Under the pieces are notes generated by a model that worked only from the letters and a program-made list of their open reading frames with translations, made no database searches and was not told where the DNA came from. Source: a virus. From it: DNA of 28,856 nt. The stretch spans positions 1 through 28,856 of IMG/VR virus record IMGVR_UViG_3300027899_000052; one strand, 5' to 3'. The translations under genes and the position numbers were made by a program. Below, piece after piece: positions 1 through 22,059 of the stretch (its first letter is position 1; each line of letters starts with the position of its first letter).

Positions 1-3000
1 CTAATAGTACTCGAGTTAAAGAGATTGAGTTACCATTAATGGTGGCAATATAAGTATCAGCTGGAATCCCAAACGCCACGGCTAGCATACCAGTGGATAA
101 TCCAACATTAGAAGTTACTGTCAGTATGTAGGAATCAGGGGCTCCAACAGATGAAGTTATAACTGGATCATTGGTTATAGTAGCTGTGGCTTCCCATACA
201 CGATTTACATGACGTACCTGTGTGCCTTGTGGGTATGTAGCTACGGCATAACTCCAATCAGTAATGTTGGATGTATATTGATAACGGTCATATTTAATTG
301 TGGTTAAAATAGATCTTGCCAGATTCTTGCCTAAGGCCAATGGTTGATTGCCCATGACAGCGACTGCTAACGCACCGTATCCGTTACCGCCGGTTAATTT
401 GATTATTGGTGTAACAATATAAGGACCGGCAGCATCAATAATATTGATTGCAATAACACGTCCAGCACTGTTAACTACTGCTTGTATATTAGTTGCTTGT
501 TCAACTCCATCAACATATACTTTAACATCCGGTGCCACAGTATATCCGGAGCCACCGTCGACTATAGTAATGTCTTGTAGGTCTAATAGATAATTATTAT
601 ACCATTGTTTCCAAGGATCAAATGTCCAAATTTCTGCATTAGGAGAGGCATCACTAGTAGTGCTCTCTACTATGCTAGTACTTAGATAATATGGTTGGCC
701 TGACTCATCAAACTGTAAAACTGGACTTACATATTGTGGTACGTCTATATTTTCAGTTTTCCAATATGCTGGAACATCAAAGTCAGTTAATGATCCTGGG
801 TAGGTATCATCACCATAGTAAGTCAAATCAAATTGTCTAATTTTTACATGGTATGGTTTGACTTCTTGAATATAATCCAGCACAAACGTTTGATTGTCTT
901 CAAGATAATTTTGGAAGGGCAACAAAGCTCGAATTCTGTGCTCAACATCAACCAAGCTAGTTTTAATTAACCAGTCAGGTGCTGTAAATTCACTGTAAAT
1001 GTAGTTAAACATCAAAATTAAATTACGATTACGTTCAATTGCTAACTCATCTACAAACAATTCGTCATTAATAGCTTGAATAATTTTTCTAGTTTCGATT
1101 ACAGGCTCTTGATCAAAATATTGTGCATCAAATACTTCAACATCAAAACCGTATCTTCCAAGCGCATAATTCCATAACTTTTCACTAAATTGTATAGTGC
1201 CGTCTTGGAGCCCAACGCGGTCCCAACCTAGATCTGTTCTTAGATAAATTTCAAATTTGCCCTGGGCGTTGGCCCGGACCTTAACACTACTACCAACAGG
1301 AGCTTCGGTTAATGTCAACTTGTCTAGAGCTGAATACACAGGAACTTCTGCAATAGGTTGTTTGGTACTGTTGTATCCGGGCAAGTACCAATCGATGTGA
1401 TCCCAGTAACGACGAGTATCATAATTTTCAACTCGAGTCAACTGTACTGTGCGTAATCCTGGGTTATCAACTTGCAGATTTTCATCCAGAACAACCTGAT
1501 AGATACTCCATAGGCCATTTTGTGTGGCGGCACTGTCTACTAGGTACAAATAACCCAATGGTACAGCATATATGTTTTGATAACTAAGCTCTTCAAGATT
1601 GGCAACATTTGCATCCCAGGCACCGGATCCAGCTTCGGGAGGAGGTTCAAAACTGTTTAGTAAATTAAATGATCTATTTTCAGTAATTGGATATTGTGCT
1701 AAAATAGTGTTGGTGCGTACTAGATAGTTTTCCAGGGCCATAAAACGATCAGCAAACATACTTTGACGTGGGCGGAATTGTACTCCATATCGTTCAGCTG
1801 GACTTAACATTGGATCCGGCACTGGTGCGCCACGTGTGTCAACTCCTGAGAAACTGTCTATTAATTTTCTGTATAAAGTTGCATTTAAAAAACTATCAGG
1901 CTGTCCGTCGGCAATAAGATCATATTCAGTATGAATGTTAGCATCGTTGAGTTCTTGATCAAACTCAACGTGTATGATAGTATCGGCTGCTGATATGTAT
2001 TCTAAAGCATTATATAATGCTATTGTACTAGAGTTTAAAGCAGCAATATAAGGTATGCCACTGTTTCTTGGATTTTCAATATAGCGAGCTACTCCAGTGG
2101 CGCTGAGAGTTTTGCCAGCGCCAGTATCTACAGTAGATATATTTCGAACCCAGAAATAATAAGTTGTTACAAAAATATTTTCTTTACTAAGAGCACTTCT
2201 TACAGTGTAACTACTAGTACTCAGCACGGTACCTGCACCAGTATAACTCAGTGGGGGTACATCACTGGCTACCCATTGATAAATGTCTACTCGACTACCG
2301 GGGAATGTCTGCCCCCAGCGTCGACTTGCATACACAATATTGTCTTGATTTGGGTCAATGAATCTTACAGTATCAGTGTCCCACCACATTTCGCCTACGT
2401 GCTCTGCTCCCCAACTGTTGCCTTGATTTCGTATGGTTCCGTTTGTGTAGTTTGCTGGGTCCACTGCTCCAATGTAATCAATGTTTCTACGTGCAGCTCC
2501 TAAAACTTTACCCTGTAACGGATCAATAAAATCAAAATATGTTTGTGTAGACGATACCAATCGATCATACATGTAAACTGAATTAATTTGATTTACATCT
2601 ACCGAAGGTTGTTGGATATGTATTACTTTCCACGCTGGATCACGATCTGGGTTGTTAAACACTGAAACCAACCCATAATTAAGAGCACTGTCTCCCAGGT
2701 CGTTGCCTGGTGCGCCTACCATAAGTCGGCCACTGGTATAATTTAGTGCAGTACCAAACTGATCTTGAGATACTAAATCAGTAGTATAAATTTGCTGTCC
2801 AAACACAAACATGCCAGGATTGGTAGCAGAACCGTTGGCGGATGGTAGGTAATCATAACTGTAAACTACTCCACTGTTGAATACTGGAGAGAAGAATGTA
2901 GTACTACGCTCATCAAAATAAGTTTTTCCGCCATCAAATGTAACAGGTTCGTAGACATTGCCATTTGGCGCACCAACAACTAAATTAACAGCATTAGTAT

Positions 3001-6000
3001 CTATATTCAGTGAACTACCAAACTGGGCATAAGTTACTGCGTTAGGACTGAGTATGGTTTGTGCGTAAACAAAAGTATCAAATCCTAAAGTATCAAATAA
3101 TGTACCAGTTATACCCGGTAACACTGTTAGTCTATTACCCGGGGTAGAAGACTCAAGATTTAATACACTCAATGTCAATCGTCCCGATACTATTGTAATT
3201 ACACTTCCTGCAACGGGTGCGTCAACAAACACTATTTGTTTAGTAGTAGAATTATAAACATAATCTACTCCAGCAGTCTGCAAGGTCGATCCAATATATA
3301 CCACTGTGGTATAACTGTCAGCTGCTGAATAAATGGTTCCTACCTTAAATGTCTTAGTATTATTGTCACCGGTAAAAATTAAATTTGGAGTAACAGTAGC
3401 TATAGCATTGGGAACTGGCGTACTTAATGTCCAATAGGTTGTATTAGTTGGAGCATTGCCCACAGTAGTCGACAATGCCACATAGTAAAAATTATTATAA
3501 GTGACCCGATCGCCAAGCACGTATTGACGAGTAGACAGATATGGGTTAGGACTAATTGCTTCTGCTAGTCCTTTTACAGTGTTATTTGGAGATTGTGGAA
3601 CAACTACTGCCACATCATTGATGCGAATAGATTGTCCTGCAACTAATGTAGGATTGGCAATTAGAGATGTAGTAACACCATATAGTCTGCTTTGATTTAT
3701 ATTGCGGTCTACTGACCCTGCTTCAAGTAGTATAGTGCTGTCTAATGGATTACCAACATACAAGCTACAGCTGGTAGGACAAATGTCCACAGCAGATCCA
3801 AACAAACTTCCACTTTGAGGAGTATTAGCTGAAATTTTCTGTATTTGTTTAAATTGATTAGTTTCAATTTCTATTACGTCGCCAACCGATAATGGATTTA
3901 AAAAAGTAACAGTATTGTTATCAAGATTTACATCAACTTGGCCATTGATGAATTGTATTCTGGTAATTCCAAATTCTGTGTAGCTTTGTATATCTAAAAA
4001 TTCATTGTTTAATATTACTGATACTGGACTAGTTGCTGGCGTAGGAATAGAATATGTTGCAAGGGTTGTATCTTGAACAATATATTTGACTACACTACGA
4101 TCAAATGCATAAACAGATCCTGCATTTGCTGTTGTTGATACGTCGTCAACATTGGCGCCAATATAAATTCCGCGGCCGTCTATAGTAGTGCTTACACTAA
4201 CGCCAAACTGTGCATCAGTTGGCAATCCAGCAACAGAAATTGTGTCAACATACTGCCAGTGTGTATTGGCTATAACAAATATTTGATCGCCCACCCCAGG
4301 AATAGTATTAAAAGTTAGGTCTTGAGTATTAAGATTACTATCATTATTAAATTCATAATCAATGTATGGGCGTTGTATTACCCCATTGACAATAACAGTA
4401 ATTGAATCAATGTTAGTTACAGTGTACAAATATGGTGTCAATGAGAACGGACCGGCTGTGCCGTCTCCGGTTAATTCTACTCCAGAGCGGCGGCTAATTG
4501 ATAACAAAGATCCTTCTGGCGGAATAGTAACAAATGTAACATAGTATCCGGCTGGTAATCCAACTGGATTTTGTTGTATTACATAATCTGTGCCATATGC
4601 GGCTGTTTGCCTATTTAATACAACAACTAATTGCGCAGACTGTGCGTAATCAATTACAATGTTGTCAGAAACTAAAAAAGATTGATCAACGCCATTGGTA
4701 GTAGTTTGAACTACTTGATCTTCAACATCTACACGGTTAAAGCAATAAACTTTTCCGCCGTTGGTATCAGCTGGAGCTCCTACGTATAGCCATCTTTCGT
4801 CGGTACTGACTGCTACTGAACTACCAAATTTGATAGGATCAACGCTGGGACTTGGGCGCACCAATAATTGTGTTTCACGGAAAGCATTAGTGGTTAAATC
4901 TCTATAAACAGAAAGTACATATCCTTGATTGTTATTACTAGCACTGGCACCAATGGCTGCCCATTGATTCTTGCCAAAATCAATTGCGTTACCAAATCCT
5001 TGTGTGCCAATGGCATTAAGGGTAAGCAATACATCTTGAGTGTAATTGGTATTGCCAGAATTTTGACGATATGTATAAACTATACCGGTATCTACCATTG
5101 GACTACCAATCATGGCTGCAAATAAATTTTCGCTTTGTGCTATGCTGGTTCCAAATTTAGAATTTGGAATTGGTGTCTGTGCTAAAAGTTGAGTAGTTGA
5201 TGAGAACGGATTTTGTTTTTCTAGTACTGCCCAATGGCCAGATCCGTCATTATCAACATAAGCACGAGCGCCCGGTAGTAAACTATTAACATAGTCTAAA
5301 CTAGCCACATCACTGGCCTGACTGACTCTCATTGTTTGAAGATCAAACACCATACCGTTACCAGTGATAGTAGTTTGACTGGTATTAATAAAACTGTAAG
5401 AAATAATTACCGATGTAATTGACGGTACTGATAATACTCTGTATACACCGTTGACCGACTCATTGAAATATCTAATTACAATTAAATCTCCAACACTAAG
5501 GCCATGAAGTCCACTAAATTCAGCAACACTGGTACTATTAAGATTGTCAGTAATTTGTGTTAATTGTCCAGGTACTCTGGCGCAACGATATACTCCCCAA
5601 TTGTAACTGTTAATTTTGGCTATCCAAATAGTAGTGCCAACACCAATATTATTGATATCTGCGGCAATACTAGCAGGGTCGTTGATGTCAAAAACAGTAA
5701 CATCAACGTCATCAAGATTTACATAACCAGCACTAGGTAATGCAGTGTCTTGATTGGTTACATAGGTTGTAGGTAATATGTCTGTGGACGTTAGTCTATA
5801 GCTTTCTCTCCAGACATCATTTAACAAAATAGTTTGATCGGCCAAACTTGGTTGTTGTGGCTGTATAACTTGCACTGTTGATGGGTCAGATCTAAGATAT
5901 GCCTCGTTGAGTCTGAGTTCAATGAAACTACGGTTAGCGTTGGCTCCATATGTGCCGATCAGTATTGCCCAGTTTTCAAATATTTCATAGGCGCCCGTTT

Positions 6001-9000
6001 CTTTACCTAAATCAGCATAGGTAAACAATTCTGCAGCTCGTATTGTTCCTTTGGTGCCTAAAAATTGCTGGTAAAGATTTACTTGGCTAACGTCATTTAA
6101 ATTTAAATCTGTCATGTATTGACGCGGTCTGAATCCAATAAGGCCATATGACAACAAATCGTTGTCGCGTTCTAAGTTGGCACTGTTAGTGTTATAACTG
6201 TTGGCCAGTTGATCTGCTTTATTGGCCAAGTTAGGCAAGAGGCCTTTTTGTATTTTAGTATAATCGCTCTTGACCCAGTCGTTGGCCTCAAATTCTAACT
6301 TAGGTTGTACAATAGTCTGGGCTGACCAGTAATTGGTTTTATACAGTACAATTTCACCTTTGGTATATTTCTTATTAGGTTGCCATTGTTTAACATTATT
6401 TTGATTTAGTATAAATCCTTGAGCATTTAACACACCATTCCAGTCTGTACTGGTTGCGCCGGTCATACGCACACGATTTTGTCTAGCAGCAGTAGTAGGA
6501 TCGTACACAAGATCCTGGAAGATACTTACATTATCCAACACAACCATATTTTCATAGTTGGTAAATTTCATATCCAAGAATGATATAGCCTGACTTGATG
6601 CCGATGTTACACTAAACGTGTCGCCATACCGTTGAACAATTAAATCTCGAGTAGGTAATCTTTGTTTGTTTTGATCTAGAATTACGTTTTCTGGGCTTGT
6701 ACTAACAATTGTATCTACTACTGCTCCTGCTCGATAAGCCTTGAGAGTATTGGCTGCTGGATTTAAATTAATAATTGTGCCAGGGGTCCATCCTTGCTGA
6801 CTCCAATACAAAAATTCTTTGGCCATTTGATTCCAGTTAAGAGTATAGTTATTCACTCTTTCATCAAATACCAGTCCCTGACTTTCAAGCCAAGCGCCAT
6901 AACTCAATATAAAATCAACCATCATGGTAGTATTAATAAATGTATAACCATATGGTATTTGAACTACAGTGTTGGTGTATTGAGCCGGAACACGTACTGT
7001 TGCACCACCACTAGAAACTGTTTGTAATACACCGCTGCTTGAACTAGCAAAAACATTAAAATACGGAGTAGCATTATTATATCCATAAACAATGTAGCCG
7101 TTCTCTGTTTGTTCAACAATTAAAGAACTGTAAACTACACGACTAAATGGTTGATTTTTGTATAACAATAAGTTGTAACTGTCGTCTGGTAACAACAAAC
7201 TACTGTTGGTACTGTCAGGACTTGACCGTTCAACATAAAGACTAAGATACTGTTTGTCAGAGAAACTGGCCATTCTATAGCAAAGTCGTACATCTAGGCT
7301 GGCCAAATCATTGGTCAGTGCAGTTGTTGAGTTGCGGCCCAGTTGCTGATTATAGTCCACAATCCAGTTGATGTAACTGGCCTTACTAACACCATTGCCG
7401 TAAACTTGAACTCCACTGGCATTTAATCTGTAGCGCCCATTGTAGAGATATTGTTCCAGGTCAAAATCATATTTGTAAAGATCTCTGTCGGCAAATAAGC
7501 TAAAGAATTCTGCAGGACGTGTTAGTATTAACAAACGCATGACAGCAAAAGGATAGCTACTACTTTGCCACCATGACGCTTCAACCGGGCCGCCGTCGCC
7601 TACTGACCAAGATTTTTGGAAATCAGTAGGGTTGTATGGACCTACTACACTTACCAGAGGATCTAATAATTCTCCCTCAGTTCCTACTGGAATAACTTGG
7701 GTTAAGCCAGGTCTACGATATGCTGGTTTAATGTAAGGAGCAATAGGATCTGCAACAAGGCCGGCCTCCAGGTCGTCCCATAACACCAAGTTATCACTAG
7801 TGTAGGGTGCAGGGCCGTAACGATTTTCCCACCAATCGGGTTGCACACTTAATCCCAGCATTTCCCATGGTGTATAGTTAGGTGTTATAGTGTCATAGAA
7901 ATAACGATAAATTCCACGCCAAGCACCCAACAACGGTTCACTATTAATTTTATTGCCAGCAGTACTATAGTTGTAGGTAAAAGCATTACTGGGTTGATAA
8001 TCTTGTGCTTTGTAATTTAACTTGTTCCATCCTACCCAAGTCAAGAAGCTTTCGCCCAAGATACCAGTGGTTTCTGTTTGTGAATAATCTGTAGTGCGGA
8101 AAAATCCTGGAATTACATCTTCGGCACTAAGTGGAATTGGATTACCATCCATTTTAATATTGTCATAGATTCTACGTTCAAATTCTAATAAAATGTCATC
8201 GCGGTAATCACCAAAAGCCATGGTTATGCTACCATCATGTCCTTCAATTACCAACTGAGGCTCTAAATAATTGTCACTGACATATATCCTAGGCACATAT
8301 TTGGGATAAAGACCCATTTTGGTTGGAGTATTAGGACAAAAGTTACCAGCAGTGTCGGCGTACTCGTTAATGGTGATAATATCCCCTACTTCAAGCGAAA
8401 CCGTAACAGTAAATCTAGGACTGTCAGGCGATACTATATATTCCAGATCTCGAGTAAGTAATCGTGTTTCAGATCCTCTTGTAAGATATACTAGCAGTCC
8501 TTTAAAGTTAGCCGACGTAAAATTGTAAGTTTCTATTGTGTTAAATGTTGCTGTGCTAACAAATCCAATGGTGTCCACAGTTTGTGTAAACACTGATCCA
8601 GTAGGCAACATGTCAGACCAATAAAATGGATTAATATCTGTGCGACCAGATGTGATTTCTGCAATAGCCGAATCAAGGATCTCGGCTATGGTCATTTCTG
8701 GGTATTCATTACGTGCTACAGTTTCCAACAACAAAGATTTATATTTGATGTATTCACGACTGTTGTACTCTAACGAAGCAAAAATATCATATTCTTGGCT
8801 ACGCATAAAATAGCCAGCCAAGGTTAATGGGCTACCTTGTTGTAGTATCTGCAATCCGTAAGGAACAATATTTCCCAAATCTCTGGTATTATTAGCACCA
8901 ATGATTGGACCTTGTATAGTTAATAAATTTTGACCAATAGTTTCATAGTGTGTGCGTATTGTGCCCAAGGTAAACACTTTGCTGTTATCATTGAATGGGT

Positions 9001-11953
9001 TATTTTCTAAATTGATAGGAACCTGATAAAAAGCAGTAGGACTAATCTGGTCACTTAGTACCGCAACCTCAATGACATCACCCGGTACATACAATCGATT
9101 AAGTGTAATTGTAGTAGTGGTATCTGTGGTAATATAACTGTAGTTGGCTGGATCTTCAAACTGGCTGTTTACATAAAGTTGTATGGCAGGAACAGTAGTA
9201 TTAGTATTGACCTTGATGTCTAATCGTAATGGTGTACCATCGTAGCTGAATTGGAATTGTTGTCTAATTAAACTTTGGGTTACTGCAGATTGCCATCCAA
9301 TCTCTTTGGTGTACTCAAGACGAGTACTGTATTGGCGCACAAATCCTTCGCTGACGTATTGTGTTTGCCCAACACTTTGATAAACGTAATCAAAGGTATC
9401 GGTGTAAAGATTATTGTCAAATACAATATCGCCTATGTTAGACAGGCTAAGGTAACGTAATGGAAACCCTAACACAGCATCGGGTGAAGTATTACTGGTA
9501 GCATAGCTGAATAGTTTAGATCCACGGAATGTTGTACTAGGATACTTGACTCGATTACCAAAACTTATTTCAGCTGAATCATAAACATCAAATAACGGTG
9601 CCTGGTTGACTCCAGTTTTTTCTTGTGCTTCGAACCAGTCAACTCCGTCAAACCAAAAACTCAATCCTTGTAATGTTTCTCCGCTAAGACATACTGTGGT
9701 CTGATCTACCAATACTTTATTATCCGTGGCTGGAACCAAATTGATAATAGGTGGTGTGACTGCAGGATCTGGAGTAATAAATTGAACTTCGTAAATTTGA
9801 TTTCTGACCTGTGGGTCAGTATCGGCAGCAAATATAACCAATGTGCCTTGAGCGAACGGGTATCCATCCACACTGTAACCTGTGCTTCCATTGATGGTGC
9901 TTAACGCATCTGTGGTCTGAAAATCAATAATATCAACCGGAGTTACTGCCTGTGTGCCAAAATTAAATAATCGTGTTCCAGCTCTGAATTCCAGGATAGG
10001 TCTACGAGCGCGGAACAGGTTATCTACTGTGGGCTGTATGCCATTTAGTTGGCACGAGTATGTGATTACATCAATATGAAACCAACGATTGCTACGACTC
10101 CAGGCATTGAGATCTGGACTGGCGCGACTTATGGTTAAGTAATCTGGAACTATTGGAGCATTTAGTGTAGCATCAAAATTGCCTAGATCATACGGGGTAG
10201 AGTCATAGGGTATAGTGGCACTTTTAGTATAAGTTTCTGGAGTAACAAATTCTGTTACTGGTAATAATTGAATTGCAGTACCTACACCTTCAACATAATA
10301 ACTATTATTTTGATATGCTAACGGCTCAACATTACCACGGAATGTAACCTTCAATCCGTTGGTGAATACTACTCCATTAGGACTGGTATAATTTTTCTTG
10401 CCAAGAATATCTTCAATGAAAATAATGTCAGTTAGATCTTGGTTAATTAATCTAATCTGTCCAAATATTTCAGGGTCTGTACCATCTTGGTACCATAAAA
10501 GATTCTTAATTGCAGTTAACAGAGGAATTTTTTCAAAGTATCCTGATGCATTTTTATACCAGGATGTACTGGAATATTCTGTGCCATATAGAATAGAAAA
10601 CTTTTGTAAATTGTTAACAGTCAATACATTGTTCAACTGAATATAAATGCCGCCTGGATCAGTTACATATTGAATTTGCCAAACGTCTGATTCAACTGCT
10701 TGTTGCTGAGTTAAAAATACAACTGTTTTGCCATCTAAACTTGTTATTCCATCAATGCCGTCGGGGTTGGCCAGTAAAAATGAATCAAGCAAAACATTGT
10801 TTATTTGGTCAAAGTTAAGTGTTGTGACTAAATCTACTGTGCCAGCAGTTTTTCCACTAATATTTCCAATTGGTGCTAGACTATAATAAAAATTCTGTGC
10901 TGTACTTGGGGGCACATTAAATGTAACTGTTCCTAAATCTTCGCCGTTGTTGACAACTCCAAGCACATCTCTTGAACTGATATTGGGTGCATATGGCAAA
11001 CGACCATCGACTCCAGGATCAGACTGAATCCAAAATCCAGGGCCAGTGCCCGGTGTAGCATCAATGATATTAAACACGCCTTGCATGTTGGCCTGTGTGC
11101 TGTTGGCATAGTACAAGGTGTCAGGAGCATCTTGAGGAACAACAAATGTAATGGTTCCTAAAACCGCTCCGTTGTTGGTAACTCCGTTATTGTATAGATT
11201 TGTATTGCCTAGACTAGGAGTAGTTTTAATATAAAAAGGAAATGGCTGATTCAATACCATAGTAAAGGTATATGTATTGCCGCGCACTAAAGTTAATGTT
11301 GGGTTAGGCTCATAGTCAATGACAAAAGCAGAAGCACCGTTGTTCGACACACGGAAATTAATAGTCTCTTTGTTGTTTTGAGCTACTTGAAAAGTATAAT
11401 TGCCGCCATGTACCAGAGTCAATGTTGGGTTATTGCCACTTATTCCACTAAAGGTATAAACACCATTTTCTCGTGTTACTACAAAATCGTCAGTTAATGG
11501 TATGGTGCTAGCCGACACATCTACAGCAAGCGGCCCAGCAGGTTCCCAATAGTATTGACTATAGTTAACAAATTTATCAAAATCTACAAATGGGTCCCAG
11601 GTATAATAATTGCTTTTGTACAAACTATCTGGGTTGCTGACATTTGCGCCTTGTAATTTTAATGCGTCATTGATGCCAGGATAGGTAATGGCATCTTTGA
11701 TATCTGAAGTATCACTGTCCAGACTAATAACGCCCGGTTCTAATTGATAATCGTTACGACTTTTAGTAGGCTCAATAACATACTTGTCTGCAGAATTAAC
11801 ACCGGGTCCAACTTTACGACCTACATAGCCTTGAGTTTTTTGAAATGCAGGTTCTTGTACCAGCTGATCTAGCGTGGCATTAAGAAATTGGCGATTAGCC
11901 GGGGTTTGAAATATCTCAGGAAGAAAATCTACTGTACGAACGTTATTGGCCAT
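1..11953 (-). CDS. Giant baseplate/tail structural protein, partial (at least 3984 aa, C-terminus beyond left edge)
   Basis: The frame starting at ATG 11953-11951 stays open to the window edge, giving at least 3984 codons. The N-terminus begins MANNVRTVDFLPEIFQTPAN, a start I associate with giant virion proteins of aquatic T4-like phages. The gene lies directly after gp6, where T4 has gp7 (about 1030 aa), so a baseplate-wedge or fibre-attachment role is inferred from position only. Visible modules, by residue: cupredoxin-like repeats at about 170-350; beta-sandwich modules with an NG..DY..GD.I.I pattern at about 900-1220 and again between propeller blades; CBM5/12-like aromatic motifs near 1855, 2805 and 3900; seven FG-GAP-like blades at 2267-3100; and glycine-rich GGSGY/GGNGYGA repeats near 3790-3860. 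Start choice: the ATG overlaps the gp6 stop (TAATG), and a GGAG ribosome-binding site sits 7 nt upstream. No signal peptide or membrane segment was noticed. Existence as a gene is near certain; the gp7 assignment is weak. Confidence 0.88.
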   Translation of the reverse strand, partial: MANNVRTVDFLPEIFQTPANRQFLNATLDQLVQEPAFQKTQGYVGRKVGPGVNSADKYVIEPTKSRNDYQLEPGVISLDSDTSDIKDAITYPGINDALKLQGANVSNPDSLYKSNYYTWDPFVDFDKFVNYSQYYWEPAGPLAVDVSASTIPLTDDFVVTRENGVYTFSGISGNNPTLTLVHGGNYTFQVAQNNKETINFRVSNNGASAFVIDYEPNPTLTLVRGNTYTFTMVLNQPFPFYIKTTPSLGNTNLYNNGVTNNGAVLGTITFVVPQDAPDTLYYANSTQANMQGVFNIIDATPGTGPGFWIQSDPGVDGRLPYAPNISSRDVLGVVNNGEDLGTVTFNVPPSTAQNFYYSLAPIGNISGKTAGTVDLVTTLNFDQINNVLLDSFLLANPDGIDGITSLDGKTVVFLTQQQAVESDVWQIQYVTDPGGIYIQLNNVLTVNNLQKFSILYGTEYSSTSWYKNASGYFEKIPLLTAIKNLLWYQDGTDPEIFGQIRLINQDLTDIIFIEDILGKKNYTSPNGVVFTNGLKVTFRGNVEPLAYQNNSYYVEGVGTAIQLLPVTEFVTPETYTKSATIPYDSTPYDLGNFDATLNAPIVPDYLTISRASPDLNAWSRSNRWFHIDVITYSCQLNGIQPTVDNLFRARRPILEFRAGTRLFNFGTQAVTPVDIIDFQTTDALSTINGSTGYSVDGYPFAQGTLVIFAADTDPQVRNQIYEVQFITPDPAVTPPIINLVPATDNKVLVDQTTVCLSGETLQGLSFWFDGVDWFEAQEKTGVNQAPLFDVYDSAEISFGNRVKYPSTTFRGSKLFSYATSNTSPDAVLGFPLRYLSLSNIGDIVFDNNLYTDTFDYVYQSVGQTQYVSEGFVRQYSTRLEYTKEIGWQSAVTQSLIRQQFQFSYDGTPLRLDIKVNTNTTVPAIQLYVNSQFEDPANYSYITTDTTTTITLNRLYVPGDVIEVAVLSDQISPTAFYQVPINLENNPFNDNSKVFTLGTIRTHYETIGQNLLTIQGPIIGANNTRDLGNIVPYGLQILQQGSPLTLAGYFMRSQEYDIFASLEYNSREYIKYKSLLLETVARNEYPEMTIAEILDSAIAEITSGRTDINPFYWSDMLPTGSVFTQTVDTIGFVSTATFNTIETYNFTSANFKGLLVYLTRGSETRLLTRDLEYIVSPDSPRFTVTVSLEVGDIITINEYADTAGNFCPNTPTKMGLYPKYVPRIYVSDNYLEPQLVIEGHDGSITMAFGDYRDDILLEFERRIYDNIKMDGNPIPLSAEDVIPGFFRTTDYSQTETTGILGESFLTWVGWNKLNYKAQDYQPSNAFTYNYSTAGNKINSEPLLGAWRGIYRYFYDTITPNYTPWEMLGLSVQPDWWENRYGPAPYTSDNLVLWDDLEAGLVADPIAPYIKPAYRRPGLTQVIPVGTEGELLDPLVSVVGPYNPTDFQKSWSVGDGGPVEASWWQSSSYPFAVMRLLILTRPAEFFSLFADRDLYKYDFDLEQYLYNGRYRLNASGVQVYGNGVSKASYINWIVDYNQQLGRNSTTALTNDLASLDVRLCYRMASFSDKQYLSLYVERSSPDSTNSSLLLPDDSYNLLLYKNQPFSRVVYSSLIVEQTENGYIVYGYNNATPYFNVFASSSSGVLQTVSSGGATVRVPAQYTNTVVQIPYGYTFINTTMMVDFILSYGAWLESQGLVFDERVNNYTLNWNQMAKEFLYWSQQGWTPGTIINLNPAANTLKAYRAGAVVDTIVSTSPENVILDQNKQRLPTRDLIVQRYGDTFSVTSASSQAISFLDMKFTNYENMVVLDNVSIFQDLVYDPTTAARQNRVRMTGATSTDWNGVLNAQGFILNQNNVKQWQPNKKYTKGEIVLYKTNYWSAQTIVQPKLEFEANDWVKSDYTKIQKGLLPNLANKADQLANSYNTNSANLERDNDLLSYGLIGFRPRQYMTDLNLNDVSQVNLYQQFLGTKGTIRAAELFTYADLGKETGAYEIFENWAILIGTYGANANRSFIELRLNEAYLRSDPSTVQVIQPQQPSLADQTILLNDVWRESYRLTSTDILPTTYVTNQDTALPSAGYVNLDDVDVTVFDINDPASIAADINNIGVGTTIWIAKINSYNWGVYRCARVPGQLTQITDNLNSTSVAEFSGLHGLSVGDLIVIRYFNESVNGVYRVLSVPSITSVIISYSFINTSQTTITGNGMVFDLQTMRVSQASDVASLDYVNSLLPGARAYVDNDGSGHWAVLEKQNPFSSTTQLLAQTPIPNSKFGTSIAQSENLFAAMIGSPMVDTGIVYTYRQNSGNTNYTQDVLLTLNAIGTQGFGNAIDFGKNQWAAIGASASNNNQGYVLSVYRDLTTNAFRETQLLVRPSPSVDPIKFGSSVAVSTDERWLYVGAPADTNGGKVYCFNRVDVEDQVVQTTTNGVDQSFLVSDNIVIDYAQSAQLVVVLNRQTAAYGTDYVIQQNPVGLPAGYYVTFVTIPPEGSLLSISRRSGVELTGDGTAGPFSLTPYLYTVTNIDSITVIVNGVIQRPYIDYEFNNDSNLNTQDLTFNTIPGVGDQIFVIANTHWQYVDTISVAGLPTDAQFGVSVSTTIDGRGIYIGANVDDVSTTANAGSVYAFDRSVVKYIVQDTTLATYSIPTPATSPVSVILNNEFLDIQSYTEFGITRIQFINGQVDVNLDNNTVTFLNPLSVGDVIEIETNQFKQIQKISANTPQSGSLFGSAVDICPTSCSLYVGNPLDSTILLEAGSVDRNINQSRLYGVTTSLIANPTLVAGQSIRINDVAVVVPQSPNNTVKGLAEAISPNPYLSTRQYVLGDRVTYNNFYYVALSTTVGNAPTNTTYWTLSTPVPNAIATVTPNLIFTGDNNTKTFKVGTIYSAADSYTTVVYIGSTLQTAGVDYVYNSTTKQIVFVDAPVAGSVITIVSGRLTLSVLNLESSTPGNRLTVLPGITGTLFDTLGFDTFVYAQTILSPNAVTYAQFGSSLNIDTNAVNLVVGAPNGNVYEPVTFDGGKTYFDERSTTFFSPVFNSGVVYSYDYLPSANGSATNPGMFVFGQQIYTTDLVSQDQFGTALNYTSGRLMVGAPGNDLGDSALNYGLVSVFNNPDRDPAWKVIHIQQPSVDVNQINSVYMYDRLVSSTQTYFDFIDPLQGKVLGAARRNIDYIGAVDPANYTNGTIRNQGNSWGAEHVGEMWWDTDTVRFIDPNQDNIVYASRRWGQTFPGSRVDIYQWVASDVPPLSYTGAGTVLSTSSYTVRSALSKENIFVTTYYFWVRNISTVDTGAGKTLSATGVARYIENPRNSGIPYIAALNSSTIALYNALEYISAADTIIHVEFDQELNDANIHTEYDLIADGQPDSFLNATLYRKLIDSFSGVDTRGAPVPDPMLSPAERYGVQFRPRQSMFADRFMALENYLVRTNTILAQYPITENRSFNLLNSFEPPPEAGSGAWDANVANLEELSYQNIYAVPLGYLYLVDSAATQNGLWSIYQVVLDENLQVDNPGLRTVQLTRVENYDTRRYWDHIDWYLPGYNSTKQPIAEVPVYSALDKLTLTEAPVGSSVKVRANAQGKFEIYLRTDLGWDRVGLQDGTIQFSEKLWNYALGRYGFDVEVFDAQYFDQEPVIETRKIIQAINDELFVDELAIERNRNLILMFNYIYSEFTAPDWLIKTSLVDVEHRIRALLPFQNYLEDNQTFVLDYIQEVKPYHVKIRQFDLTYYGDDTYPGSLTDFDVPAYWKTENIDVPQYVSPVLQFDESGQPYYLSTSIVESTTSDASPNAEIWTFDPWKQWYNNYLLDLQDITIVDGGSGYTVAPDVKVYVDGVEQATNIQAVVNSAGRVIAINIIDAAGPYIVTPIIKLTGGNGYGALAVAVMGNQPLALGKNLARSILTTIKYDRYQYTSNITDWSYAVATYPQGTQVRHVNRVWEATATITNDPVITSSVGAPDSYILTVTSNVGLSTGMLAVAFGIPADTYIATINGNSISLTRVLL
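2650..5160 (-). other. Seven-bladed FG-GAP-like beta-propeller region inside the giant protein
   Basis: Seven repeats begin with FG followed by a short polar strand, then V/I-G-A/S/N-P-like turns, and end in a V-Y/S-x-F/Y strand. The FG phenylalanines are residues 2267, 2320, 2376, 2583, 2718, 2978 and 3066. Examples are FGSSVAVSTDERWLYVGAP, FGSSLNIDTNAVNLVVGAP and FGTALNYTSGRLMVGAPG. FG-GAP repeats build the seven-bladed propeller of integrin alpha chains and of some bacterial surface proteins. Blades 1-3 are compact, about 54 residues apart. Blades 3-4, 4-5 and 5-6 are separated by 135-260 residues holding inserted beta-sandwich modules. The repeat pattern is seen directly; the propeller fold is inferred from family knowledge. 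Confidence 0.7.
3420..3550 (-). other. CBM5/12-like carbohydrate-binding motif in the giant protein
   Basis: Residues about 2802-2845 read QYVLGDRVTYNNFYYVAL, then a G-x-x-P turn, then TTYW. This fits the CBM5/12 (chitin-binding type 3) pattern Y-x-x-G-D-x-V-x-Y-x-x-x-x-Y-x-A ... G-x-x-P ... W. It sits between propeller blades 5 and 6. Binding to a polysaccharide is inferred from the pattern only. Confidence 0.45.
6255..6400 (-). other. Second CBM5/12-like motif in the giant protein
   Basis: Residues about 1852-1900 contain WQPNKKYTKGEIVLYKTNYW, then S-A and a later NDW. The W...Y..G..V.Y...YW.A...W spacing matches the same aromatic module family as the copy near 3420-3550. It lacks the G-x-x-P turn, so it is less certain. 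Confidence 0.35.
11060..11440 (-). other. Tandem cupredoxin-like / Ig-like modules in the giant protein N-terminus
   Basis: Two copies of a PTLTLV-(R/H)G-(N/G)-xYTF strand motif (about residues 172 and 215) each open a beta-rich segment. The later parts carry NNG...LGT.TF.VP followed by LYYANSTQANMQG, and then a similar NNGEDLGTVTFNVPP. This is the layout of cupredoxin-like domains, which normally end in YY-C-x-x-H-x-x-M-x-G. Here the Cys and His copper ligands are replaced (YYANSTQANMQG) and the first His site reads PFPFY. A copper-free structural version is the likely reading. Confidence 0.5.
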
Positions 11954-14900
11954 TAAATTACTCCGCTACCAGGAGCAGTACGAATATTTGTACTGGTTAA
12001 AGCCTGAATAACTTCAACATCGTTAATGGTGGCAGCATTTACAAATATCTGATTTGGTGCGGAACGAATTTCGTATAGGTCGCCAAAATATTTTTGTGTG
12101 TTGAGTGGCACTAGCACCACACTACTGACTACATCGCCAATCTGTGCATGTATGTAAGCAGCTAACTCACTGAAATAAAATGTAGCACCAAAGTCCCACT
12201 TGTCAAGACTAAAATAAGCATCCATATTGGCTACAACCAAGTTTTTAATTTCACTAACACTGGCCGTACTCTGTGCAGATTTAATAACTTTAATAGTGGC
12301 TCGCAGTTGTTCTGCTGCACGGGCACCAAATAATGGTTTAAATTCCACACTATTAAGAATCATATTGTCTGAAATCATTTTGTAATTTTGTAAACCAGAG
12401 TAAGCAGTGGTCAACTCATCAATGGTAGGCGGAACAGGCTCTGCGACAGTACCAGTTGAATCTTTGATCCAATTTTGATAAGAAGTATAATAAGCACGAG
12501 TAACCACATATATGTCAATGATATTGGTTGATCCTGGGTCTAGTCTACTGGTCAACGGACTGTTATGACGATACTGGAAATATAAATCTTGCCGACCTGT
12601 GCGGGCTATCCATTCAGTGGTGACATCCTCTAACAGTTTGGTGCCGTTGGCATCAATTACAATCTGATAAAATACAAACTGCTCATAGGCATAAAATACC
12701 TGGCCGACTATGTAATCTGCTAATACCAATGCAATAGCGGCTTGGGTTGGGTAGTTGCTGTTTACTACTCCTTGTTCAACCAATAGATATCTTTGTAAAT
12801 TATCAAAGTCTACTGTCTTTTGAAGGAACACTAATTTTTTATTAGGCTCTACATTAGGTGCCACAATGTCATTGAAGAAATCTGGATTGTCTGGAATTCC
12901 GTCACTGTCGACATCTTCAAATCCAACAACAACTTGGAAGTCATCTACATATCCGTCGCTTTCAACTGGTTGTCCAATAATTTTTATTCTAGTGTCGCCG
13001 TCTAATGGCAAGTTGCTGTCAGGTCTACTGTTGGTTTTAAGAATATTAATAAAGTCAGCAATTACTGTGCCAGTTCTACTGTCGTATATCTTTTGATTAG
13101 TAAAGAAAAAGAATCTGGTTTGAATTACACTACCAAAATAATAGTCAAGATTTCTTGATGTTACTGTGTATTGTTGCCCGTCAGTGGTACATTGAATAAA
13201 CCAGGACGCATCAGAGTTCACACCGTCATTGTTATAAGCCGGACCAGGAGGAGTTGGCGGATAGTTTGGACCTTGTGTCAAGCTCCATGTAGCATTAATG
13301 TCAAGGTTGCTGGCTGTAATAATATACCAAGTATAAGGAGTTCCTGTAATGCTACCTGTATTGTCGTAGCCTAAACCAAAATTTTGATTCAATGCAATCA
13401 AATCTAATATGTTTTGTTGTAGGGTTGTGGTAAAATCAGTAACAAATAGTGGAATAACTTGCGCAGCAATAGCACCATCGGGCACATAATTGTTTAATAC
13501 AACTGGGCCTTGTCCATTGTCAAAGTTTCCTTGCCCTTGATTAGTTCCGTTTACATACACTGCTGTTGGGCTAGCCCATAATACCATTTTTTCATCTGCA
13601 CGAATTGGCACGCCGGCTTTGAGATTATTAGTAGCATCAAAGAAATAACCCGGTGGTGGTGTGAATTTTACCAAGGAATTTACCACAATAAATCTAGTAT
13701 TGTTAGAAGTGTAAGGACCAATACTTACGGGACTACCATCACTGTCTTGAAAATATCCAGTGGTTTCGTTAGCCAATGTAGTACTCTGATTCCAGGATAC
13801 CCCCTGTGATGTTAAATCAACTCTGGGATAATTGGCATAATAAAATTGTTGGGCGCCTGATTTAATCAATAAAGGGTTGATTTGATTAATAATAATATCA
13901 GTGATATCGTTATTGGTTAACCAATTAAATCGAAATGCTGGTAAATTGTTGGCTTCATACAGGGCACCATCGCTGGCAAATGTATTAGTACTGGAATATT
14001 TTCCCGTACCGTCAACCAAGTCCAAATAACGACTAGTTCCAATACTGGCACGATTCAATGCCTTGCTTTTTAAAATTGAATTGTAAGCGGTAAATGGAAA
14101 GTTATTATAGTCCTCGCCGTTGACCATGCGATCTTGTGTGTAATAACGAGCTGGAGCACGTTGTTTAATTTCGTCAATGGTTTCACGTGACTGAGCATTA
14201 CTTACTGGCTCAGTGATACCACAGGTAAATGTAATTGTTTCAATGTTGCCTGTACGACTAATGTATGAAATTGGAATAATTACACTTTGCATTTCTTCTG
14301 GATTAATGATATACTGCAATCCATTTGACGCACGAACATAACAACGGAAAAGTCCAACTGGAATAGTAGAGAACACGCCGTCACCAAAGTTCAATGTAAT
14401 TTGATCATTTACTCTGCTGGTAACTGCAAATAAAGTTCTTGTGCCAGGAGCCAACTGCTCAATGGCTGCGCCGTATACACTAGGAACAAAGGTCCACTCT
14501 TGCGAAATATTTCCTACGTTGTCTAATTGATACAACCAACGGTCTGTGTTATTAACACCTTCAATATTGATGTTGACCTGGCGGTTACTAATACGTTCTG
14601 GCAAATTAAAATCTTGGTTCTGTAGTACACCTTGTTTGAAATAGAAAAAATATCCTGTGTTGGCTGATTCAAATCCCAATTCATCATTGCGGAATAACAC
14701 ATTAAATTGTCCAACGGGTTTAGGACTAGGCTCGTAGATAAAATCTTTTCCAACGGCTGTAGCATTAACCACTTCAAAAGGCATGTTAACTCCGTCGATT
14801 GTGGCTGTGTATGGAATCACTGGTATATAACCTGGTACCAAGTTTACTGTGTATTCGTCTGTGCGAATACCTAAGATTGTGGTTCTTGCTCCTGGGCGGC

Positions 14901-15411
14901 CTACACGTTGAGTATCTACCAAACTGGCATTGACAATGGCAGTAAATTGTTCTTGCCAATCAAGATTGCTAGGGTCCGCCCAGTTTACAGTAATGTTAGC
15001 AAGATTAACTCCATTGTAATCTGTAACATTTTCTGTAGTTTGTACACTGAATACTTTGAGATAACCGCTTGATTCGGTATTACGCTTGGGAGTATAGCTT
15101 ACTAAATTTGCAAGTCTGACAACACTGTCGCGGCGTTCTGCTGTGTCTAAATAGTTTTCACGTGTGTTTAAATCTGTACGGAATGCCAAGCCTTGGCCCA
15201 TAAAAGCCATAACATCCAGCAGGGCAATAAATTCTGAACTTTCAATATAGTCATTGAAAGTTTCTGGGTAATACAAACGCAAATAATCCACAAAGCTCTT
15301 GCGTAGTGTTTCAAAATCGTAACTTTGAAAATCAGCTTCGCGATAGGTTTGATAGATTCTCTTCCAATCTTCAACACCAAATATTACTGTTTGTCTTGTG
15401 GTTTTGGCCAT
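11953..15411 (-). CDS. gp6: Baseplate wedge protein gp6 (baseplate_J family), enlarged
   Basis: gp6 dimers join neighbouring wedges into the baseplate ring and control the sheath-triggering change of baseplate shape. The N-terminal 110 residues carry the gp6 hallmark: a DFETLRKSFVDYLR helix, ESSEFIALLDVMAFMGQ, then TAERRDSVVRLANLVSYTPK. The C-terminal 150 residues hold the typical end region with FGATFYFSELAAYIHAQIGD. The protein is 1152 aa against about 660 in T4. The extra length is mainly between residues about 450 and 900: beta-rich, Pro/Gly/Asn-rich stretches and a DVDSDGIPDNPD calcium-type loop at about 834-845. A late-type promoter lies 19 nt upstream. Its stop overlaps the start of the giant gene. 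Identification is confident; the role of the insert is unknown. Confidence 0.92.
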   Translation of the reverse strand: MAKTTRQTVIFGVEDWKRIYQTYREADFQSYDFETLRKSFVDYLRLYYPETFNDYIESSEFIALLDVMAFMGQGLAFRTDLNTRENYLDTAERRDSVVRLANLVSYTPKRNTESSGYLKVFSVQTTENVTDYNGVNLANITVNWADPSNLDWQEQFTAIVNASLVDTQRVGRPGARTTILGIRTDEYTVNLVPGYIPVIPYTATIDGVNMPFEVVNATAVGKDFIYEPSPKPVGQFNVLFRNDELGFESANTGYFFYFKQGVLQNQDFNLPERISNRQVNINIEGVNNTDRWLYQLDNVGNISQEWTFVPSVYGAAIEQLAPGTRTLFAVTSRVNDQITLNFGDGVFSTIPVGLFRCYVRASNGLQYIINPEEMQSVIIPISYISRTGNIETITFTCGITEPVSNAQSRETIDEIKQRAPARYYTQDRMVNGEDYNNFPFTAYNSILKSKALNRASIGTSRYLDLVDGTGKYSSTNTFASDGALYEANNLPAFRFNWLTNNDITDIIINQINPLLIKSGAQQFYYANYPRVDLTSQGVSWNQSTTLANETTGYFQDSDGSPVSIGPYTSNNTRFIVVNSLVKFTPPPGYFFDATNNLKAGVPIRADEKMVLWASPTAVYVNGTNQGQGNFDNGQGPVVLNNYVPDGAIAAQVIPLFVTDFTTTLQQNILDLIALNQNFGLGYDNTGSITGTPYTWYIITASNLDINATWSLTQGPNYPPTPPGPAYNNDGVNSDASWFIQCTTDGQQYTVTSRNLDYYFGSVIQTRFFFFTNQKIYDSRTGTVIADFINILKTNSRPDSNLPLDGDTRIKIIGQPVESDGYVDDFQVVVGFEDVDSDGIPDNPDFFNDIVAPNVEPNKKLVFLQKTVDFDNLQRYLLVEQGVVNSNYPTQAAIALVLADYIVGQVFYAYEQFVFYQIVIDANGTKLLEDVTTEWIARTGRQDLYFQYRHNSPLTSRLDPGSTNIIDIYVVTRAYYTSYQNWIKDSTGTVAEPVPPTIDELTTAYSGLQNYKMISDNMILNSVEFKPLFGARAAEQLRATIKVIKSAQSTASVSEIKNLVVANMDAYFSLDKWDFGATFYFSELAAYIHAQIGDVVSSVVLVPLNTQKYFGDLYEIRSAPNQIFVNAATINDVEVIQALTSTNIRTAPGSGVI
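11961..11964 (-). promoter_or_regulatory. Ribosome-binding site of the giant gene
   Basis: GGAG on the minus strand, 7 nt before ATG 11953-11951 and within the end of gp6. It supports the chosen start and coupling to gp6. Confidence 0.6.
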
Positions 15412-15456: not shown

Positions 15457-15831
15457 TTAAACATAGGTGGCACGACGTTGTTGTTGATTAAAAAATATGC
15501 TTAATCGTTGAGCGTCGGTGCTGGGTACCACTATCAGTGATAGTTGTATTAATATACCATTTTGTTGTGGAAATAATTCTATATCGTTTAATGCTACTCT
15601 AGGATCCTGGCCGCATACACGCTGTATTTCAGCAGTAATTTGACGTTCGGTTTCTTGCGTTTGATTTTCAAAAACATAATCCCAAAGAACAGTTCCATAA
15701 CCAGGGCGCCCTACTAGTTGCCCTTGGCGTATATTAAAGGCATTTAGTAGGTCAATTTTAATCAAGTCAAAGTCAATGGCTGTGAATTTTTTGTATTGAT
15801 CAATGGTGTTGAATCCGATGAATGTTGGCAT
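15457..15831 (-). CDS. gp25: Baseplate wedge protein gp25 (GPW_gp25 family)
   Basis: A 124-aa protein, close to the 132 aa of T4 gp25, which seeds sheath assembly on the baseplate wedge. The family core is visible: FDLIKIDLLNAFNIRQGQL, then VGRPGYGTVLWDYVFE with its G-x-P/GxG turn, and later E-I-Q-R-V-C-G-Q-D-P-R-V before the C-terminal strands. It lies just upstream of gp6, a neighbour pairing common to contractile tails. The intergenic gap to gp6 is 45 nt and holds a late-promoter candidate. The C-terminus ends RRATYV. The Shine-Dalgarno sequence is weak. Motif, length and position agree. Confidence 0.9.
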   Translation of the reverse strand: MPTFIGFNTIDQYKKFTAIDFDLIKIDLLNAFNIRQGQLVGRPGYGTVLWDYVFENQTQETERQITAEIQRVCGQDPRVALNDIELFPQQNGILIQLSLIVVPSTDAQRLSIFFNQQQRRATYV

Positions 15832-15864: not shown

Positions 15865-17442
15865 TTACCCAAAAAGGTTTCTTGCTTGTGTAGTGACCTG
15901 GCTTTGCAAGGATGTGGCCTGTTTTTCAAGATTTTTTAATATATTTTGTGCCTGGGTAATGTCAAGTCTTGACGCTACACTGGGCAAACTAGGATATTCA
16001 AAGTTAGGCACTGGAATTTTGGCACTGCCCAATACTCGTTTAAATGCTGCATCTACAGTTTGGCGATTTACTGTGTTATTAAATCCAGCAGCAGCCTTGG
16101 TGCCTGACACTAAGTCTCCTCCACCACTGAATAAACTACCTAAATTACCTAATGCCCCTTGTACTTGGCTGGCCAAGGCCTGTGCTTGTCCTTGTAAGGC
16201 AGCTGCTTGTCCTTGTAGTTGTCCTGCTAGAGCTTGGGCCTGTCCTTGTAGTTGTCCTACCAAGGCCGTGGCCTGACCTTCTAGTTGTCCTACCAAGGCC
16301 GTGGCCTGGCTTTTTAATTGTCCAGTGACTTTGTCAGACAGCCCGTTTAAGTTAGACAAAGGATTTGAAAAATTCACACTAAATTGCGAAGCTTTGCCCA
16401 ATAAATTCATTCCTGCATTTAGATTGGGTAAACTACCAGGAATAAGATTAGTAAGATTTGAAGTAATAGAATTCAAATTAACATTTTGTAATGCTGACAC
16501 ATTGCCAATTCCAAGAGCTTTACTCCATAAGGCTGTGGCTTGAGTGCCGTACTTGCTGGCATTGCTAATTAAAGCACCTAGGTCTCCGTTAACTTTGTTT
16601 GTTATTTGCGACAGGGTGTTGGTGCTTATTGTAGGAAGTCCATTAATGGTTCCTCCCAATAATGATATTGAATTGCGGTCTACCAAGCCAATGTTGGTAT
16701 AAACTTGTCCAGTACTTAGACTAGGTGGTTGTAGATTTTTGTCAACAATCACTCCAGAAGCCACAAGAGAATTATAGCTCTGTTGCATAATTTCAGTCTG
16801 TATAGTAGTTTGTGTATCAGAGCTGATCAATATATCGTTTAAGGATGTTATACCATCCTTGCCAGTCCATACACTGGGGCTGCTCATGACTGCAACAAAA
16901 TCTTCTGGCGTGTCTATAAAATATTTTGCACTGGTTCCAGGTTTGACATAGCCAGCTTGCTCTAATGAATAAGCGGTAAATCCATATTGCCCAATGCCTT
17001 TTTCTAACGTAATTACATCAAATTCTTGATCTACTATATTGGTAATTTGTGCCAATAATTTTTGCACTTGAAATGAATCCAATGGTCCCACTGCGTTTGG
17101 ACCAAGGCCACCACCCCTGGACAAAAGTATGTCGGCATCGTCAATTGGATTTTGCAATGGTACATTGACCAGCGAAGGTACAGTCGAGGTTGTAGGAAGA
17201 TCTTGAATTATAGCCAATACCGTATTATCAATACCGGCAGTGCCGCGATCCAATCGACTAAGTTCAAGTTTAACTGTTTTTGATTCTACGCTAGTTAATG
17301 TTTGTCCTGGACTATATCCAACAAGGCTACCCGAAGCTACCTGTTCATAAAATATACGATCGGCCTGCAACTGTGTAGTGCCCGACGGGGCGTTTACAAC
17401 AAATTTGTCGCCTGATGGAAGAGTATAGTTAAATTGGCTCAT
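15865..17442 (-). CDS. Uncharacterised baseplate-region protein with hendecad coiled-coil repeat
   Basis: 525 aa, between gp5 and gp25, so very likely a virion protein. I cannot assign a T4 equivalent. The N-terminus (LPSGDKFVVNAPSGTT, then QADRIFYEQVASGSLVGY) resembles a conserved opening I associate with proteins in this position in aquatic T4-like phages. A central domain at about 145-235 includes GQYGFTAYSLEQAGYVKPGT and SPSVWTGKDGITSLNDIL. Residues 378-428 are three perfect-length 11-residue units (such as GQATALVGQLQ), one 7-residue unit and a further 11-residue unit. The last 30 residues are again Gln/Ala/Leu-rich (KNLEKQATSLQSQVTTQAR). A coiled-coil shaft or trimer is plausible. The start ATG overlaps the gp5 stop (TAATG), with only a weak ribosome site. 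Confidence 0.85.
   Translation of the reverse strand: MSQFNYTLPSGDKFVVNAPSGTTQLQADRIFYEQVASGSLVGYSPGQTLTSVESKTVKLELSRLDRGTAGIDNTVLAIIQDLPTTSTVPSLVNVPLQNPIDDADILLSRGGGLGPNAVGPLDSFQVQKLLAQITNIVDQEFDVITLEKGIGQYGFTAYSLEQAGYVKPGTSAKYFIDTPEDFVAVMSSPSVWTGKDGITSLNDILISSDTQTTIQTEIMQQSYNSLVASGVIVDKNLQPPSLSTGQVYTNIGLVDRNSISLLGGTINGLPTISTNTLSQITNKVNGDLGALISNASKYGTQATALWSKALGIGNVSALQNVNLNSITSNLTNLIPGSLPNLNAGMNLLGKASQFSVNFSNPLSNLNGLSDKVTGQLKSQATALVGQLEGQATALVGQLQGQAQALAGQLQGQAAALQGQAQALASQVQGALGNLGSLFSGGGDLVSGTKAAAGFNNTVNRQTVDAAFKRVLGSAKIPVPNFEYPSLPSVASRLDITQAQNILKNLEKQATSLQSQVTTQARNLFG
16159..16311 (-). repeat. 33-nt in-frame tandem repeat coding for hendecads
   Basis: Successive 33-nt units encode SQATALVGQLE, GQATALVGQLQ and GQAQALAGQLQ, then a 21-nt short unit, then a further 33-nt unit. 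The units nearest 16311 are almost identical in DNA, which points to recent duplication. An 11-residue period gives a right-handed or straight coiled coil (three turns per 11 residues), unlike the usual heptad. Confidence 0.75.
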
Positions 17443-21759: not shown

Positions 21760-22059
21760 TTAGAATCCCAGTGTTGATCTGAGTGTGGTAATCTTGGGCA
21801 AGTAAATTACAGCTCCGGCTACAAAATCTATTGGCGGCTTGGTCAATGTGTTAGGATTACGCTGATAAAACACCCACCACAGTTCCGCAGTATCGTACAA
21901 GTCAAATGCCAATAAATCTGGCCTGTACTGATAGGTAGTATTGATTGTGAACAATTGATCGTCCGGCTCTTTGGGTATGGGTCTATTGACCATTACATCC
22001 AAGAAGAATTGACTGTATTGAGTTAAAAAATAAGGACTGGCTGCAGTGTATGTTGCCAT
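21760..22059 (-). CDS. gp53: Baseplate wedge protein gp53 (short form)
   Basis: 99 aa against about 196 in T4. The gp53 signature is clear: YQYRPDLLAFDLYDTAELWW, then VFYQRNPNTLTKPPIDFVAG and VIYLP. gp53 joins the wedge late in assembly and clamps it to the gp6/gp25 core, allowing wedges to form the hexagonal baseplate. The short length suggests that only the conserved core is kept. Its start overlaps the stop of the 772-aa gene (TAATG). It has the strongest ribosome-binding site in the block, AAGGGAGG at 22069-22076 with a 9-nt spacer, inside the upstream gene. Confidence 0.87.
   Translation of the reverse strand: MATYTAASPYFLTQYSQFFLDVMVNRPIPKEPDDQLFTINTTYQYRPDLLAFDLYDTAELWWVFYQRNPNTLTKPPIDFVAGAVIYLPKITTLRSTLGF

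Follow-up and report, generated by a model that had tools for sequence, protein, structure and literature searches.

Does a giant structural protein of an uncultured phage carry an integrin-like propeller, and what would such a ring do there? The question is raised by a 28,856-nucleotide (nt) stretch of viral DNA (IMG/VR record IMGVR_UViG_3300027899_000052, positions 1 to 28,856; hereafter the window), whose minus strand encodes a protein of more than 3,984 amino acids (aa) in an open reading frame (ORF) that starts at base 11953 and leaves the window at base 2. A first, sequence-only reading had proposed that seven FG-start repeats of this protein close one integrin-like FG-GAP propeller, with extra modules in three of the gaps between repeats. 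We found that the region is predicted, with good support for the fold, to form a single seven-bladed FG-GAP beta-propeller of the integrin-alpha type. Computation also shows that the giant protein has a slot of variable size into which the entire ring is inserted; in jumbo myoviruses, this protein is encoded after gp6 in the baseplate operon.

Seven FG-GAP repeats are predicted to close one propeller

All seven phenylalanines named beforehand (residues 2267, 2320, 2376, 2583, 2718, 2978 and 3066) proved exact on the minus-strand ORF. The Pfam family FG-GAP_2 (PF14312) matched residues 2240-3130 above its cut-off in five separate stretches (E = 3.5e-18, 65.9 bits versus a cut-off of 23). FG dipeptides number ten within these residues versus five across the other 3,093 residues of the protein, and a strict composite FG+GAP pattern occurs four times, always in the propeller region, versus a mean of 0.0045 in 2,000 shuffles. 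We aligned the corresponding region of relatives in a non-redundant set of 92 slots, window included, with 40-60% identity to the window (alignment A4). At every one of the seven sites, 87-92 of the 92 rows retain the G of FG, a GAP, GSP or GAS motif follows the FG sites, and FG-GAP_2 matched all 41 rows sampled. Although the inserts vary, both alignments keep the same count of seven FG motifs. Homology to integrins by sequence was not significant, the best PDB profile match being integrin alpha-M (E = 0.13).

An AlphaFold2 (AF2) model of residues 2075-3190, built on A4, reached a predicted local distance difference test (pLDDT) score of 87.7 and a predicted template-modelling (TM) score (pTM) of 0.85, and showed seven four-stranded blades as opposed to separate beta domains, with strand 4 of blades 3, 4 and 5 coming after inserts. 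Foldseek against the PDB matched this model to integrin-alpha propellers with probability 1.00 (TM 0.60 on the 449-aa alpha5 domain); the same list holds meaningless entries with low TM and high root-mean-square deviation. A second AF2 model was made for L283, a relative without large inserts, on a 36-row alignment that left out later-fetched loci (pLDDT 82.6, pTM 0.79). Its bare ring has exactly 28 propeller strands, or 7 x 4, and integrin alpha leads its Foldseek list, where it accounts for the majority of the 50 best hits, with TM up to 0.63 and E about 1e-11; seven-bladed propellers of other kinds match too (Sec12, TM 0.71). The integrin-like, seven-repeat propeller of the sequence-only reading is thus borne out by profile, model and structural neighbours, as are its extra modules, since all three long FG gaps hold all-beta inserts in the model. 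Its placement at 2650-5160 caught the right region but stopped short, because the ring runs to residue 3114 (nt 2612), which leaves its last strand, WKVIHIQ (3108-3114), just beyond the stated range.

Among viral models (BFVD), the matches were FG-GAP proteins of giant viruses (Megaviridae), an entry named 'FG-GAP repeat [uncultured Caudovirales phage]' and an unnamed Harvfovirus protein (TM 0.76 on the target). Two stand-alone phage proteins also match the ring in fold: a 393-aa 'hemagglutinin' of Atu_ph07 (A0A2L0UZX4), a phage whose giant protein is ring-less, and a structural protein of cyanophage S-TIM5 (H6WG31).

Two details of the blades stood out in the alignments. Cys2725 and Cys2729 of blade 5, a Cys-x3-Cys pair (nt about 3767-3781, minus strand), are both kept in 86 of 92 rows and are a candidate disulphide or metal site. 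The long 2-3 hairpin of blade 6 (residues 3001-3033, nt about 2855-2953) follows the pattern TTFD.G.T.F...STTFF, which is preserved even in distant bare rings.

The ring occupies a variable slot in a baseplate-region protein

We assign the giant protein to the baseplate region of jumbo phages on the basis of its match to phrog_10938 (virion structural protein, 1025 bits), its baseplate gene neighbours and the relatives of its core. The gene order gp25-like, gp6-like, giant protein is present, with gp6 and gp25 directly upstream of the giant gene. The core matched 84 phage records by tblastn, nearly all of them jumbo, including PA5oct-like phages, Atu_ph07, Phosso, Salicola SCTP-2, Vibrio 2.275.O, 121Q and RaK2. 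The position after gp6 suggests the role of T4 gp7, and profiles of the core matched no gp7 chain in the PDB by sequence.

The propeller itself found no match by tblastn among 50,697 phage records, where E-values up to 1 brought up only flank and short insert stretches, and it found nothing in a single-protein IMG/VR scan. Relatives were obtained by IMG/VR scans with flanking-core alignments, two of which gave at least 560 relatives each, with 80 loci. The slot between the conserved flanks measures 980-1281 aa in 141 ORFs, and the nearest relative by core alignment, among the matches listed, is L010 on a 344-kb contig. Two further scans centred on SCTP-2 and Atu_ph07 yielded more distant relatives, the majority of which hold a diverged ring (35 of 36 sampled match FG-GAP_2 at E up to 0.1).

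Alignment with propeller-less phages shows the ring flanked by the conserved motifs GHWAVLEKQ (from residue 2240) and VDVNQINSVYMYDR (to residue 3131). The propeller was not seen in some 30 loci of the IMG/VR scans, nor in any of the seven cultured phages examined. The propeller-less slot is about 250-360 aa long in RaK2, 121Q, Vibrio 2.275.O and PA5oct-type phages, 552 aa in SCTP-2, and about 1,570 aa in Atu_ph07 and Phosso, where it consists mostly of GSGYT-type repeats; similar repeats replace the propeller in locus L249. A LamG-like domain suspected in the SCTP-2 slot was unsupported by Pfam.

In a core tree built without the slot columns, which is unrooted and so does not distinguish gain from loss of the ring, all propeller carriers fall in one clade (branch support 95) with two changes. 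One of these is L207, whose diverged propeller, with six blade hits, was missed by the score threshold. The ring marks a single clade of IMG/VR phages. Propeller-bearing giant phage proteins were also found on contigs placed in metagenome-assembled genomes (MAGs; L305, L306, L308, L309 and L310), with the labels Neomarinimicrobiota, Pelagibacter, Porticoccaceae and Betaproteobacteria. We did not take these labels as hosts, since the nine MAG contigs with the giant protein are probably misbinned phage contigs.

Inserts vary at fixed loops of a constant ring

In the clade of the window, the 3-4 loops of blades 3, 4 and 5 are occupied by inserts in all 92 rows, and other loops rarely are. The other, 36-row set carries them in the 2-3 loops of blade 2 (21/36) and blade 4 (19/36); many of its rows have a further one located at strand 4 of blade 3 or beyond it. 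L283, L203 and L248 are nearly insert-free. The 1-2 loops are never extended by more than 10 residues. In a propeller, the 3-4 loops lie on the face opposite to the 2-3 and 4-1 loops.

CBM_5_12 was matched in 19 of the 36 rows of the other set (E up to 0.1; best E = 1.8e-10), and Flagellin_IN in 4 of 41 relatives (E = 0.0019). Inserts 1a, 1b and 3 of the window share a small 'VNG..DY' beta module by hhalign (probability 97.6 for 1a with 1b and 98.7 for insert 3 with 1b), to which insert 2 is weakly related.

Mean pairwise identity is 0.53 and 0.61 in the two flanks, 0.45-0.50 in the blades, 0.38 in insert 1 and 0.39 in insert 2, so that divergence is slowest in the flanks, faster in the blades and fastest in inserts 1 and 2. 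Insert 1 differs by 62 aa, amounting to one module, between rings of 88% identity, and by 64 aa between rings of 87% identity. Of 200 pairs whose framework identity is 0.62 or higher, 61 disagree in at least one insert. Such gains and losses between near-identical rings are the pattern that swapping of plug-in modules would give.

A candidate adsorption platform and its alternatives

We consider it fairly probable that the protein holds a rigid ring with exchangeable loop beta modules, partly CBM5/12, at the adsorption apparatus, where the modules would touch the host. The ring would be a constant platform exposed on that apparatus, the loop modules may contact the host or its glycans, and exchange of modules would change host specificity without altering the ring or the way it attaches to the baseplate. 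A receptor-binding or scaffold function fits the swapping of modules, CBM5/12 included, between relatives, and the strongest pointer to contact with the host or its glycans is the CBM5/12 identity, judged from sequence, of inserts in the sister subclade. More tentatively, this clade of uncultured jumbo phages may build its host-contact surface on a constant integrin-type ring in a wedge-region protein and evolve its host range by swapping small glycan-binding modules at fixed loops, on opposite faces in different subclades.

Several observations weigh against this interpretation. Closure of the ring is read from strand order and fold matching by TM score on predicted models, and from the constant count of seven; many jumbo phages do without a ring. 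In the window itself, the CBM5/12-like stretch of insert 3 (2807-2835) scored 13.2 bits (E = 0.096), below the cut-off of 26.2. Insert 3, at an identity of 0.43, is conserved nearly to the level of the blades, and the faster divergence of the other inserts also fits relaxed constraint alone. The 'VNG..DY' module is a generic building block of tail proteins that recurs weakly elsewhere in the giant protein, and the inserts may for that reason be structural.

This last point leads to the main alternative, in which the propeller is a structural or docking part that joins wedges or anchors tail fibres, and the inserts touch neighbouring baseplate proteins. T7 nozzle gp12 offers a precedent in a seven-bladed propeller with a blade loop reaching into another domain, serving channel closure and subunit contact (PMC6702177). 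The giant gene comes after gp25- and gp6-like wedge genes, and the inserts look like modules of a generic kind in tail proteins (DUF2460, Phage_T7_tail). Against this, the ring is entirely absent from cultured relatives that share these wedge genes, whole modules come and go between near-identical rings, and the CBM5/12 modules of other subclades suggest outward glycan contacts; we hold a structural role to be possible but somewhat unlikely.

Less likely still, and in our judgement improbable, is that the ring itself binds the receptor, through a face or its central cavity, with inserts that merely shield or position it. The five-bladed propeller of the phi11 receptor-binding protein (RBP) has a cavity that could take N-acetylglucosamine (GlcNAc), and the seven-bladed phiKZ gp131C sits at the baseplate periphery (PMC4901313), but variability here is highest in loop inserts 1 and 2 and not in the blades, whose clade-wide conservation would be unusual for a host-specific surface. 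That the region is no propeller but a string of separate beta domains with chance FG motifs is very improbable, for although some gaps between motifs are long and the strict FG+GAP pattern fits four of the seven repeats only, the profile, the invariant count of seven, two AF2 models and the integrin-alpha matches agree on a propeller.

For jumbo phages, abundant but uncultured, the ring is a recognisable candidate for an adsorption platform. If its modules do bind hosts, the bacteria that such phages infect might be predicted from their inserts.

Features of the ring and its gene neighbourhood

Table 1. Positions of the predicted propeller, its parts and neighbouring baseplate genes in the window.
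Feature	Residues	Coordinates	Strand	Basis or remarks
Seven-bladed FG-GAP propeller with inserts	2265-3114	2612..5161	-	Pfam, AF2, Foldseek, conservation
Blade 1	2267-2310	5024..5155	-	AF2 strands SIAQ/AAMIGS/GIVYTYRQ/YTQDVLL
Blade 2	2320-2364	4862..4996	-	AF2 strands
Blade 3, strands 1-3	2376-2408	4730..4828	-	AF2 strands
Insert 1, 3-4 loop of blade 3	2409-2564	4262..4729	-	Two tandem 'VNG..DY' beta modules (2424-2488, 2507-2563)
Blade 3, strand 4	2565-2572	4238..4261	-	AF2 strands; HWQYVDTI
Blade 4, strands 1-3	2583-2625	4079..4207	-	AF2 strands
Insert 2, 3-4 loop of blade 4	2626-2692	3878..4078	-	AF2; weakly related to other modules
Blade 4, strand 4	2693-2707	3833..3877	-	AF2 strands
Blade 5, strands 1-3	2718-2753	3695..3802	-	Alignment A4; conserved Cys2725 and Cys2729
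Insert 3, 3-4 loop of blade 5	2754-2960	3074..3694	-	Flagellin_IN-like; weak CBM5/12-like (2807-2835); 'VNG..DY' (2866-2925)
Blade 5, strand 4	2961-2967	3053..3073	-	AF2 strands
Blade 6	2978-3055	2789..3022	-	AF2, alignment; conserved long 2-3 hairpin TTFD..STTFF
Blade 7	3066-3114	2612..2758	-	AF2 strands
Conserved N-terminal flank of insertion	2080-2250	5204..5716	-	Aligned with propeller-less phages; mean pairwise identity 0.53
Conserved C-terminal flank of insertion	3118-3300	2054..2602	-	Aligned with propeller-less phages; identity 0.61 over 3118-3185
Giant baseplate-region structural protein ORF		2..11953	-	3,984 aa in window, no stop before window edge
gp6-like baseplate wedge gene (context)		11953..15411	-	phrog_10646, E = 5e-282
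gp25-like baseplate wedge gene (context)		15457..15831	-	PF04965, above cut-off
gp5-like hub/spike gene (context)		17442..18983	-	phrog_13211, PF04717
gp53-type baseplate wedge gene (context)		21760..22059	-	phrog_7145 'baseplate wedge subunit'

Vibrio phage 2.275.O has a gp53-annotated gene of similar size within the corresponding cluster. Between the gp25- and gp5-like genes of the window lies a 525-aa protein (15865-17442, minus strand) with low-complexity GQLQGQAxAL repeats and a weak match to baseplate hub. After the baseplate genes, the plus strand carries late sigma factor and SbcCD genes, and the SbcC-like gene is immediately followed by that of a radical SAM protein (28221-28856, plus strand), which is cut off by the window edge. 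Outside the ring, the N-terminal core of the giant protein has a CBM5/12-like stretch at residues 1856-1877 (nt about 6323-6388; 17.3 bits, below cut-off), seen in six of eight homologues scanned, and the core profile weakly matched chitinase modules and protein All3316 of PDB 7b5h. GSGYT-type repeats (phrog_1922) occur near the C-terminus of the ORF as far as the window shows it (residues 3793-3868, nt about 350-577).

Comparison with known systems

The predicted ring shares with the integrin alpha propeller (e.g. PDB 4wk0, 3fcu) seven four-stranded FG-GAP blades, with TM 0.60-0.63 on the integrin domain, and the insertion of domains in propeller loops, of which the integrin alpha-I domain is an instance. 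It differs in lacking the DxDxDG Ca2+ motif (of the FG sites, 9 of 755 in A4 and 5 of 197 in alignment A10 are followed by D-x-D/N-x-D/N), thigh and calf domains and a membrane anchor, and in sitting inside a phage baseplate protein, flanked by phage structural protein. The phrog_10938 proteins of RaK2-, 121Q-, PA5oct- and Atu_ph07-type jumbo phages are homologous on both sides of the insertion, but the cultured members are without the propeller. The giant-virus and uncultured-Caudovirales FG-GAP proteins in BFVD are propellers that match the ring model but are mostly shorter; we found no published link of viral FG-GAP proteins to a phage baseplate, and a literature search, mostly outside subscription papers, found no paper combining FG-GAP, phage and baseplate.

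Propellers in phage tails are already known. The seven-bladed phiKZ gp131C (PDB 4GBF), a suspected receptor binder at the baseplate periphery of a jumbo myophage (PMC4901313), is a separate baseplate protein in an unrelated jumbo group, and was absent from the PDB profile search (E up to 10) and from the 50 best Foldseek hits of both models. T7 nozzle gp12 likewise has seven blades and an extra domain extending from a blade-3 loop (PMC6702177), but it gates DNA in a podovirus tail nozzle and was not an FG-GAP match here. The phi11 RBP Gp45 also presents a propeller 'platform' on a baseplate and is thought to bind GlcNAc, but it has five blades, as does PRD1 P2 (PMC4901313); it is a trimeric RBP from a siphophage that infects a Gram-positive host. 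A recent paper on an algal virus proposed that this might be the first virus in which FG-GAP repeats are confirmed (PMC11467894); here the FG-GAP profile matches almost all members sampled from a large phage clade. What is new beside these systems is that the propeller is of the FG-GAP type, is inserted in a giant wedge-region protein, is conserved throughout a clade and carries exchangeable decorations. An integrin-type propeller built of FG-GAP repeats is here seen as a stable insertion, with decorations, in a protein of the phage baseplate.

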